Assembly (NCBI GenBank): GCA_024280895.1
Contig: JAJRPI010000041.1
Coordinates: forward strand, 1-62,633
DNA: 62,633 bases
Origin: Alphaproteobacteria bacterium
GTDB taxonomy: Bacteria; Pseudomonadota; Alphaproteobacteria; Rhizobiales; JAKIUO01
Direction of reading: 5' to 3'
Shown here: piece by piece, positions 45,838-57,076 of the stretch
How positions within the stretch are numbered: the stretch's first letter is position 1
Layout: every line of letters begins with the position of its first letter
Notes under the pieces: generated by a model
The model's database searches: none
What the model saw: only the letters and a program-made list of their open reading frames with translations
What the model was told of the DNA's origin: nothing
Translations under genes and position numbers: made by a program

Positions 45838-46698
45838 TTAGAAGCCGACTTTGGATAGTGCCTCATCAATTTGCCGAAGATAGCTATCGCCGAACAGGCG
45901 CACATGCACCAGCGTTGGGTATAGATTGTAGATCCCCATTCGTTCTTCAAAAAAGCCCGGCTGAAGAGGCGCGAGAGCTTGGTAGGCATCGAAAAATGGC
46001 TTGCCGAATGTCGAGAACATGGTGGTAAACGCCAGCTCAATTTCGGGATGACCGCAATAGATGGCCGGATCGATAAAACCGCTGACCTGATTATTGCTGG
46101 CGATAATATTGCCGCCCCACAGATCGCCATGCAGCAAGGAGGGGTGGTCAGGCTCAACCAAAAACACTTGCAGCTGACTGGCCAGATTATCTATACGCTC
46201 ATAGAGTTTTTTGGGCAGGGCATTTTCCTTGAGCGCTTCTCTAGCCATATAAAGCAGGCGGTGGTCGCGGAAGAAGTCAATCCAGCTGTCCATTTGTGGA
46301 TTGGGCTGGTGTAGGGGGCCAATTAGCGTGTCTTGAGAATAGCCAAATTGTTCGAATGGGCGGGCGTGCAGATCGACCAGCAATTCCGCCGCATGGCGCT
46401 GCACTTTGGGGTTGATAGAACCGCCAGACCGCATCCATTCCATGATTAGCAACCCATCACCACTATAATAAATATCTGGTATCGGTAGATTGGAATTGGC
46501 TTTGAGCTCGCGTAGCATGAAGGCTTCAAGCCCCAGTCCCGAATCATGGGAGTGTTTGGAGGCTTTTAGGGCGGCTTGGCGTCCATCGGCAAATTCAAGG
46601 CGCATGCCCGTAATGCCAAAACCAACAGGCAGACTGCGGTGATTTATAATTTCAGTGCCCAAGGCTATTTCAATTTGAGCAATCAGTTTTCTATTCAT
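45838..46698 (-). CDS. Fructosamine kinase-family protein
   Basis: This 286-residue cytoplasmic kinase of the fructosamine-3-kinase/APH fold phosphorylates ketosamines (early glycation products). LLIMEWM near residue 90, the catalytic loop LLHGDLWGGNII (Asp) and the DFG-equivalent FIDPAIYCGHPEIELAF match the family exactly. Length is standard. The ATG at 46698 has GGAG 9 bases upstream; an ATG at 46713 is in frame and also possible. It stands alone, and a divergent small RNA candidate and a glycosyltransferase lie upstream. Confidence 0.9.
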   Translation of the reverse strand: MNRKLIAQIEIALGTEIINHRSLPVGFGITGMRLEFADGRQAALKASKHSHDSGLGLEAFMLRELKANSNLPIPDIYYSGDGLLIMEWMRSGGSINPKVQRHAAELLVDLHARPFEQFGYSQDTLIGPLHQPNPQMDSWIDFFRDHRLLYMAREALKENALPKKLYERIDNLASQLQVFLVEPDHPSLLHGDLWGGNIIASNNQVSGFIDPAIYCGHPEIELAFTTMFSTFGKPFFDAYQALAPLQPGFFEERMGIYNLYPTLVHVRLFGDSYLRQIDEALSKVGF

Positions 46699-46817
46699 GC
46701 GGCCCCGCTCCATGCGTCGTTCCCCTCAATCAAGTGTAGGGGAAAGAGATTAACCATCCCGTTAACTTCAGATGTTTGGTTTGAGCACTGATTGATGGGA
46801 TTTTTTGATGGCTGGGC

Positions 46818-46905
46818 AAAAAAAGAGGCTCAAGTCAAAAGACTTGAGCCTATAGTTTGTTAAGCGTCAGCGTGGGGGGACGCTTGGGGGAACTCTTGGT
46901 TCCTC
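46818..46905 (-). ncRNA. Predicted trans-acting small RNA with C-rich loops
   Basis: There is no protein gene here. On the minus strand a promoter-like CTTGAC-17-CCATCT (46910-46938) is followed by about 88 bases that fold into three hairpins. The first is GGAAC/GTTCC with a 5-base loop. The second is AAGCGT/ACGCTT enclosing CCCCCC. The third is an 11-base-pair terminator AGGCTCAAGTC/GACTTGAGCCT with TTTT loop and a U7 tract. C-rich unpaired segments (CCCCC and CCCCCC) could pair with ribosome binding sites. The layout resembles known rhizobial small RNAs, but I cannot match it to a named family. Confidence 0.7.
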
Positions 46906-46909
46906 ATAA

Positions 46910-46938
46910 AGATGGTGCTTTGCGGGCAACAAGTCAAG
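46910..46938 (-). promoter_or_regulatory. Sigma-70-like promoter of the small RNA
   Basis: On the minus strand, CTTGAC (-35, 46933-46938) and CCATCT (-10, 46910-46915) are separated by 17 bases, matching the alphaproteobacterial CTTGAC/CTATAT pattern. The start of transcription is predicted near 46903-46905. Confidence 0.6.
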
Positions 46939-48724: not shown

Positions 48725-49264
48725 ATCGCCAGACGACCACATAAAGCCACTTCAGAACGTAATACGGGCCCGAAAGCCAATCTTTCCATTAGTGCCCCCG
48801 AAGTGCAACTCATCGATGAGACCGGAGAAAACCAGGGAACCGTTGATCTTCAGGACGCGCTCGAACAGGCGCGCAACGCCGGTCTTGACCTCGTAGAGAT
48901 ATCTCCAACTGCGAAACCGCCCATCTGCAAATTGCTGGATTTTGGAAAATTCAAATATCAGGCCCAGAAAAAGGCGGCCGAAGCGCGCAGAAAACAAAAA
49001 ATCATCGAAGTCAAAGAGATCAAAATGCGCCCGAATATCGATGTGCATGATTATGATACCAAGATGAAGGCCATGCAGCGCTTCTTCGATCAAGGCGACA
49101 AGGTGAAATTCACCATCCGTTTCCGTGGCCGTGAAATGGCTCATAAAGAGCTTGGGCGTGCCCTGTTGGACCGGGTTGTCAAGGACGCCGAGAAAGTCTC
49201 GAAAGTCGAGTTGGCCCCCAAATTCGAAGGTCGCCAGATGATCATGATCCTCGTACCTAAATAG
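48725..49264 (+). CDS. infC: Translation initiation factor IF-3 with an AUC start codon
   Basis: This 179-residue factor prevents premature subunit joining and checks start codons. The N-terminal domain includes [12 protein letters not shown] and [17 protein letters not shown], and the C-terminal domain includes [19 protein letters not shown] and [15 protein letters not shown]. Family sequence extends 26 residues upstream of the first standard start (GTG 48803) and begins IARRPHKA at an ATC codon, with AGGAG about 10 bases before it. IF-3 genes often start with AUU or AUC because the protein represses its own rare start codon. rpmI and rplT do not follow directly, which is common in Hyphomicrobiales. 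Confidence 0.92.
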
Positions 49265-55492: not shown

Positions 55493-57076
55493 TTATTCAG
55501 CAGGAACAATACCGGCTGGAACAGGTTGGGGAACATCTACGCCACCAACACGACCACCATGTTTTTTGCCCGACGCTTCGAGATCGGTTTCCAGATCTTC
55601 GGTGTTCTTGTGCAGCAGGGCATTTGTTGATGTGCCAGTGTTGCGGGCACCAAGCTTGATCAGGAAGACCAACAGGCCAACAAGGGCGAGCCACCACAAT
55701 CCAAGGACAATTTTCTGCCCGATGATCGAGTTTGGAGAAATATACTCGTACCATTTATAGGTCTCGATCAGCAGTGTGTTTTGCAAAAAGGCCTTGTGAG
55801 CATCATAGTACAAGGTGAACGGCAGATAGCCGATGGCAAAGCCCATGAAGCCGATCCAGGTATTGAGATAGCCCATGCCAATGCGCATATAGGAGCGGAT
55901 CTCGCAACCGATCAGCATCACAGCTCCTGCTCCAAGGAACAGTCCACCAATGATATTACCAACCGTTGTTTGATATTTCAGTGCGCCTGAAAAGGCGGGT
56001 CCAACATCAAACAGGGTCCAGACCACCATTATGAAGCCAAGCATGACGACCCATGAAGCAACAATGCCGATCAGCGGCAAGTAGCCCCGCATCAAGGTAC
56101 GGGTAATGCGTGGCACGCCCATTTTGGCAAATTTGCTGTCATTATTGGTCATGGGTTGCGCGACTTCCATGGCGACCAGCGAACACTCGGTGCCAAAGCC
56201 ACTTTTAGCCATGCCAAAGCCGCCAACGATCCCGGCCAACAGCGTGGTGATGACATAGAACCAGCCTTTGGCATCAACGGATTTGCTGAACGAAACCAGC
56301 TCGCCCTTTTTGAGATGTTGCAGGCTTTCCGGGTTGAAGATCCCGCCATAAACAGCAACGCCGAACATCGCAACGGAGAACAATAGGGCAAGCCAGAAGA
56401 TTGGCCGTTTGGTGCCGTTATCACCCGCTTTATATGTGGCAGCTTCGCCCCTGTCATTGCCCTTGGCATAGGAGAGGGTTTCTTGATGCTTGAAAAATGG
56501 GGCGATGCCGGTGCGGCTCATGACCCAAAAGGCACTAGCCCCGCCAATTGCCATCATCGCTGCGGTGACAAATGAGTGGATGTTGAGCAGTGGAATACCG
56601 CCGAGTAGATGATTGAGCGTGCAACCACCGGCCAACCTTGTACCATAGCTAAACAACATGCCGCCAAGAAAGGAGACAAACAGCACGCGGGCTGGATAAT
56701 GCGCCCAGATGCGGCTTTCTTTTTCCGATGTGGCGACCAGCCAGCCACCGATCATCATGCCGACAATGGGCCAGCCAACGCCGGGGATAAAGGCACCGCC
56801 TGTTGAGGCAATACCGTCAATGGCCTTGCCGTAGAGTTCAAAATCGGGAAGATTGAACAGGTTATAAAAGGACACCTCAAGACCGCGGAACATTTTGCCA
56901 AGGTCGGTCGTTACGGTGATGGGTTTTAGACTTGGTGTTTTGCCGGCCTGCACTTTTGACACCCACAGACCAACCATATAAATGATCTGTGCTATTCCAA
57001 AAGTGATACCGGCCCAAAAGAAGGGCCATTGCTTGGTCATGGCCCTCTTCAATAAAGTTTCTTTCGACTTCGACAT
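55493..57076 (-). CDS. YeeE/YedE-family sulfur-compound transporter
   Basis: This 527-residue inner-membrane protein has about 11 to 13 helices and two YeeE/YedE modules. Conserved Cys motifs line the pathway: RLAGGCTLNHLLGGIP, SGFGTECSLVAME and IGCEIRSYMRIGMG. Members import thiosulfate or other reduced sulfur. The ATG at 57076 has GGAGG 7 bases upstream. The gene is divergent from a Crp/Fnr regulator, and a DsrC-like gene lies beyond it, which supports a sulfur-related role. Confidence 0.88.
   Translation of the reverse strand: MSKSKETLLKRAMTKQWPFFWAGITFGIAQIIYMVGLWVSKVQAGKTPSLKPITVTTDLGKMFRGLEVSFYNLFNLPDFELYGKAIDGIASTGGAFIPGVGWPIVGMMIGGWLVATSEKESRIWAHYPARVLFVSFLGGMLFSYGTRLAGGCTLNHLLGGIPLLNIHSFVTAAMMAIGGASAFWVMSRTGIAPFFKHQETLSYAKGNDRGEAATYKAGDNGTKRPIFWLALLFSVAMFGVAVYGGIFNPESLQHLKKGELVSFSKSVDAKGWFYVITTLLAGIVGGFGMAKSGFGTECSLVAMEVAQPMTNNDSKFAKMGVPRITRTLMRGYLPLIGIVASWVVMLGFIMVVWTLFDVGPAFSGALKYQTTVGNIIGGLFLGAGAVMLIGCEIRSYMRIGMGYLNTWIGFMGFAIGYLPFTLYYDAHKAFLQNTLLIETYKWYEYISPNSIIGQKIVLGLWWLALVGLLVFLIKLGARNTGTSTNALLHKNTEDLETDLEASGKKHGGRVGGVDVPQPVPAGIVPAE

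Follow-up and report, generated by a model that had tools for sequence, protein, structure and literature searches.

A conserved small-RNA gene with C-rich segments and a probable RpoH-type promoter in the Hyphomicrobiales

The locus and its predicted RNA

The window, that is, the whole 62,633-nt stretch of alphaproteobacterial DNA analysed here, carries the elements of a small-RNA gene on its minus strand between positions 46938 and 46818. The first-pass annotation had described a promoter (CTTGAC-17-CCATCT), three hairpins and an 11-bp terminator stem with U7, and all of these are present. The features of the locus are as follows:

46933-46938 (-): -35 element CTTGAC; CTTGA[AC] in 37 of 38 copies
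46910-46915 (-): -10 element CCATCT, RpoH-like CCANNT; CCANNT in 36 of 38 copies
46818-46904 (-): small RNA, roughly 87 nt long, with a predicted 5' end at 46905-46903
46889-46903 (-): hairpin 1, GGAAC/GUUCC, from the predicted fold
46886-46890 (-): C run 1, CCCCC; the three Cs at its 3' end are unpaired in the predicted fold
46862-46885 (-): hairpin 2, AAGCGUC/GACGCUU, from the consensus fold and pair counts
46874-46879 (-): C run 2, CCCCCC, mostly within the loop of hairpin 2
46826-46851 (-): terminator stem, perfect 11 bp with loop UUUU, an intrinsic terminator
46818-46824 (-): U7 tail of the terminator
45838-46713 (-): fructosamine-kinase family gene (PF03881, E 1.2e-50), a synteny marker outside the RNA gene

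The promoter spacer of the window copy is 17 nt, and the 5' end was placed from the position of the -10 element; the earlier estimate was of about 88 bases starting near 46905. The nearest gene upstream of the RNA, for a glycosyltransferase (47205, +), is divergent, and the kinase gene starts 104 nt downstream of the terminator on the same strand. Among these neighbours we saw no gene reading into the terminator, in keeping with the earlier remark that no protein gene nearby needs a terminator at this place. Elsewhere in the window, a frame at 48803-49264 (+) resembles translation initiation factor IF-3 by eye.

A 101-nt stretch of the minus strand folds at -33.4 kcal/mol, compared with -16.5 +/- 2.9 for shuffled sequences (z -5.8; none of 200 shuffles does as well). 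Of the 5 Cs of run 1, 3 (46888-46886) are unpaired in the predicted ensemble; of the 6 Cs of run 2 this holds for 5 (46878-46874), in one case with a probability of 0.57. The two C5-C6 runs that had been called unpaired thus both exist, but each is unpaired only in part. Hairpin 2 has an alternative form, AGCGU/ACGCU with a C6 loop, and the energies of the two forms are -7.2 and -5.4 kcal/mol.

Conservation, covariation and genomic address

One strong copy of the RNA is found in each of the 5 genomes of the genus. Measured against the window copy, and with the four other genomes always in the same order, identity is 100, 93, 92 and 88% for the RNA and 100, 97, 86 and 83% for the promoter; it is 68, 69, 56 and 35% for the 160 nt upstream, and 68, 65, 49 and 29% for the 104 nt between the terminator and the kinase gene. 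The first 200 nt of the kinase frame show 87, 84, 81 and 62%, so that the RNA has changed less than the beginning of the adjacent protein gene (88-100% versus 62-87%). Within the genus, intergenic conservation is limited to the promoter and the RNA. Alignment in related genomes, which the first-pass annotation had proposed as a check, therefore finds both retained where the intergenic flanks have fallen to 29-35% in the most distant genome.

Homologs also occur outside the genus. A first model, built from the five copies of the genus and run on 297 sampled genomes of the order, gave matches at E 0.1 in 36 genomes, 12 of which belong to the Methyloceanibacter/Methyloligella family (f31; f1 is the window's genus group). 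A DNA pattern of the core matched 14 stretches in GTDB species genomes, including Methyloceanibacter superfactus, M. marginalis and Methyloligella sp. GL2. A covariance model from 28 distinct copies (model R2) was run on 397 genomes of the order; the matches listed include 20 f31 genomes with E values no higher than 8.4e-8, and the model also matches all five f1 genomes and G013 (f10) at 2.9e-7, copies used in building a model matching it by construction. At E 0.05 there are matches in 177 of the 397 genomes, mostly weak and left uncounted. Of the low-score matches, those inspected were mostly terminator-driven; matches of about 36 bits or less outside f1, f31 and f10, in the runs over the order and over the class, were not counted, except for G019 (f16, 6.7e-5) and G042 (f39, 9.8e-4), which were retained for motif and address as weaker homologs at shared addresses. 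The copies of these two genomes also carry the two C runs; a GCGUU...AACGC hairpin holds the second run, and an outer GAGC/GCUC stem encloses these elements. In 5 of the 20 f31 genomes, 2-3 copies stand in tandem with their starts 165-184 nt apart, and every copy has a promoter and a terminator to itself.

Covariation supports the predicted RNA structure. RNAalifold, run unguided on the 28 copies, chooses hairpin 2 and the terminator; hairpin 1 is variable in other families and absent from the consensus fold. Covarying stems had also been named as something to look for, and 8 of the 15 consensus pairs are changed on both sides, with 26 double-change cells compared with 5.4 by shuffling (0 of 500 shuffles reach the count). 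While 95.5% of the alignment cells pair, a shift of the partner by 1 to 3 columns reduces this share to 20-49%; the number of further pair types among the 28 copies is not above shuffles (13 versus 14.5). The terminator, in which 7 of 10 consensus pairs have double changes, accounts for most of the covariation. Since hairpin 2 has one such pair and is otherwise nearly invariant, its covariation support is weaker. The C-rich motifs are among the best-kept parts, their C columns being invariant or nearly so in alignment A3. In f31, the GCGUC arm is flanked by GACGC on either side, and the predicted exposure of the C runs differs between copies.

The copies also share a genomic address. At L085 and similar f31 loci, the order begins with a DgcA-type racemase, an MFS protein (by eye) and a 308-aa protein without family match, and continues with the RNA (1-3 copies), a convergent glycosyltransferase, an LpxH-like phosphatase and the fructosamine-kinase gene; the kinase homolog, where found in f31, follows downstream of the RNA with the same orientation. 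The next gene is the convergent glycosyltransferase in f10 and in the f31 genomes where it was found, and the f10 copy adjoins glycosyltransferase and phosphatase as in f31. The f16 copy adjoins the racemase gene, and the window copy immediately precedes the kinase gene. In four f31 stretches (L124-L127), no match to the glycosyltransferase or to the kinase lies there. Across the order, 55 of 81 genomes have a match to the LpxH-like gene, and none of the 5 genus genomes does; because it is missing from the genus, the synteny of the window rests on the kinase gene alone. The 52 LpxH-like stretches analysed exclude G034 and G076, which belong to f31 and were already known, G006, which gave fragments, and the second match of each of G032, G033, G056 and G075. 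In 46 of the 52 the glycosyltransferase stands next to the LpxH-like gene; beside it, convincing copies by model R2 are confined to G013 (f10) and G042 (f39). It is likely that the RNA copies across families descend from one locus; for f1 the case is made by one shared neighbour. Taking together the unit kept in the genus, the covariation, the homologs at related addresses in four further families (in two of these as weaker matches) and the tandem copies, the description of the locus as a complete small-RNA gene is borne out, and a stand-alone small-RNA gene is strongly supported as the reading of the predicted elements.

Several weaker matches were seen outside this set. Among 289 genomes across the class, the window's own genome alone passes E 1e-5; G538 and G405, from f61 in another order, rank next. 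These two have CCCCAAGCGUCCCCCC in common, lie behind a small ORF (by eye), and show no RpoH-type promoter of the RNA's kind within 260 nt. The f61 stretch (L111 1501-1585, +; L112 1501-1585, -), which combines CCCCAAGCGUCCCCCC with a terminator that has a C6 loop, is possibly a separate C-rich RNA of the 3'-UTR type. An f22 genome (L110 1501-1589, +) has GUCCCCCAUCCCCC between two stem arms and then a terminator, possibly a further C-rich RNA. The second-best R2 match in the window's own genome (G000:C59:61663-61755, +; 30 bits, E 9.4e-4) could be a terminator or a distant paralog.

The promoter and the RpoH question

In 38 distinct upstream regions, of which those from tandem arrays are not independent, a script that took the best match to CTTGAA and CCATNT found CTTGA[AC]-N16/17-CCANNT in 35, the -35 and -10 elements counted singly being those given in the list above. 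Most f31 copies carry CTTGAA, the window's genus carries CTTGAC, and the f10 and f39 copies have a poor -10. Within the window, the motif with one mismatch allowed occurs 3 times compared with 2.7 expected; at this chance level, its weight comes from conservation. The strict pattern has 25 matches in the window's genome compared with 4 for a reversed control; 16 of the 25 lie inside ORFs of at least 150 aa, and the other 9 include the RNA gene and an Hsp20 gene.

The heat-shock genes of the genus offer a comparison. Upstream of hsp20 genes, 8 of 11 regions have CTTGAA-N17-CCATAT or CTTGAA-N17-CCA[AG]AT, sites found by pattern in a longer stretch without a shuffle control, and the signature is missing before the other 3; a twelfth region (L260) was left out as its contig begins there. 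Two hsp20 groups have RpoH-type promoters (L257 and L262, with relatives L256, L259, L261 and L263-L265). A scored scan of the 260 nt before genes with heat-shock domains was not above shuffles (18-100% of the shuffles scored as well). RpoH itself is above the curated cut-off in 5 of 5 genus genomes, with two in G002. The motifs reported for S. meliloti are CTTGAA-N15-16-CCTATAT (RpoH1) and CTTGCC-N15-16-CCTATCT (RpoH2) (PMC4843759). Compared with published alphaproteobacterial RpoH motifs, the promoter of the RNA is similar but not identical, the -10 of the genus being one base shorter.

An ordinary sigma-70 promoter, which would place the RNA outside the heat-shock regulon, has to be weighed here. 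The CTTGAC of the window's genus also fits sigma-70, being the form seen in rhizobial sigma-70 promoters. Before groES, 3 of the 5 genus genomes have CTTGAC-N17-CTATAT and a fourth has N18, so the promoter of the RNA may be read by sigma-70 or by both factors. Against this reading stand CTTGAA in most f31 copies, as before hsp20 genes, and the CCANNT in 36 of 38 copies, although the -10 was chosen by likeness to CCATNT, so that the missing sigma-70-like -10 is partly built in. A sigma-70 scan of the window also leaves the promoter unlisted, because CCATCT misfits the -10 rule of the scan. We therefore regard sigma-70 transcription as unlikely, and an RpoH (sigma-32) type promoter, putting the RNA under RpoH control, as the likeliest reading of these motifs.

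Comparison with known RNAs and proposed function

Against Rfam 15, the whole window gives one match at threshold, a tRNA. In a permissive scan, the best match on the RNA strand is Yfr10, below cut-off at 21.9 bits (threshold 43), followed by suhB/mmgR (RF00519) at 16.7 bits with a gathering score of 41. No family in Rfam 15 thus reaches its threshold on the RNA, in keeping with the first-pass annotation, which had not recognised the family. The likeness to suhB/mmgR consists of a hairpin, a C-rich linker and a strong terminator.

CcsR RNAs carry C-rich CUCCUCCC loops, whereas the runs here are C5-C6; CUCCUCCC occurs in 16 of 375 loci, none of them inside a counted RNA copy. CcsR1-4 of Rhodobacter sphaeroides (cuckoo RNAs, CIN1 locus) are described as homologous RNAs in a row, with an RpoHI/RpoHII promoter and a role in stress defence (PMC10253847, PMC8307010). 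They are processed from the 3' part of a ccaF1 (DUF1127) transcript, and a single promoter stands ahead of the whole operon. The RNA here resembles them in being alphaproteobacterial, in its serial copies and in an RpoH-type promoter (35 of 38 regions, as read from sequence), but has a promoter and terminator for each copy instead of one promoter per operon. The four small neighbouring frames searched (three in the window, one at L085) have no Pfam match at E 0.01, with no DUF1127 frame among these four. The AbcR and NfeR1 families are in Rfam, and none of them appeared in the permissive scan; the RNA here is also shorter and has other neighbours. AbcR1/AbcR2 and NfeR1 of Sinorhizobium meliloti are reported to act in trans, to measure 114-121 nt and to carry anti-SD motifs; AbcR1 and AbcR2 are in tandem, and the AbcR2 promoter matches RpoH1 (PMC8844928). 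The RNA shares tandem copies with AbcR1/2, a probable RpoH-type promoter with AbcR2 and anti-SD-like C runs with all three. For GsrN of Caulobacter and the GsrN-like RNAs of Rhizobiaceae, an exposed C-rich loop, pairing with G-rich mRNA sites and a role in stress survival are reported (PMC5869019). An exposed C-rich loop is likewise found here in the predicted ensemble. The GsrN-type RNAs depend on an EcfG-type sigma factor, and the three neighbours that were family-searched here are not ecfG, nepR or phyR. EcfG-type promoters have the form GGAAC-N-CGTT; this type was rejected for the RNA gene, as no GGAAC-N15-18-CGTT precedes it, and the single match in the window, at 56887, is at chance level (1.4). 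Like other anti-SD small RNAs, the RNA would form an independent transcription unit with an intrinsic terminator. On the sequence alone, it is an undescribed family of a kind already known, and by analogy the best reading is that it works like CcsR, AbcR2 or GsrN, outside the families tested.

Other roles for the locus appear much less probable. A 5' leader or attenuator of the fructosamine-kinase gene is suggested by the position of the RNA, 104 nt upstream on the same strand in the window, but a convergent glycosyltransferase comes next in f10 and in several f31 genomes, the tandem copies of five f31 genomes have separate promoters, and the stretch from terminator to kinase drops to 29% identity; we rejected this reading as very improbable. 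That the C-rich motifs chiefly bind a protein or another RNA, so that the RNA titrates its partner, would suit the two or three repeated C runs, the tandem copies and the two possible GACGC partners of GCGUC in f31. We found nothing specific against such a sponge, but the C-rich or anti-SD RNAs of the cited papers act on mRNAs; we rate it as improbable, only slightly less so than the leader. A tiny protein gene can be practically dismissed: the 15-codon ATG frame seen by eye in the window copy, within a longer TTG frame, has its ATG in only 2 of 5 genus copies, is shifted by an extra base in G001 and G003, and is not kept in the f31 copies.

We therefore propose that the gene probably encodes an independent, RpoH-driven, stress-induced trans-acting small RNA of a family outside Rfam, whose C segments would pair with ribosome-binding sites. 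RpoH would read the CTTGA[AC] -35 with the CCANNT -10, and the RNA would become more abundant under heat, oxidative or comparable stress. Its exposed C segments could then pair with the G-rich ribosome-binding sites of several mRNAs, which fits the high conservation of the C-rich motifs, and this pairing would lower the translation or stability of the target mRNAs. U-rich terminators serve as Hfq sites in other such RNAs, and the one here may double as such a site.

Candidate targets were sought with TTGGGGGA before ATG, which has 88 matches in 5 genomes compared with 12 for the reversed pattern, an excess that may reflect ordinary ribosome sites only. The 80 stretches examined, covering 81 of the 88 places, hold 25 frames of at least 50 aa. 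Two groups, dctQ and fabA, are shared between genomes, and both are confined to G000 and G002. The starts of dctQ (L301 896-910, -) and fabA (L311 909-925, -) have TTGGGGGA, complementary to the UCCCCCAA of the RNA. Their duplex energies are unexceptional, being equalled by 2 of 60 arbitrary ORF starts, and both are weak candidates.

Full-text literature searches turned up no study of small RNAs in Methyloceanibacter or Methyloligella and no description of this RNA. The present analysis gives this methylotroph group a structured RNA family whose address and covariance model are defined and whose proposed regulator can be tested. Together with CcsR and AbcR2, it suggests that C-rich RNAs driven by stress sigma factors have been kept, or have repeatedly arisen, in the Alphaproteobacteria. 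More tentatively, the family could belong to the RpoH heat-shock regulon in a number of Hyphomicrobiales families and have been tandem-amplified in the Methyloceanibacter group, with the f31 GCGUC arm toggling the exposed C run. If this were so, the toggle of the arm between its two possible GACGC partners would be a built-in target switch.
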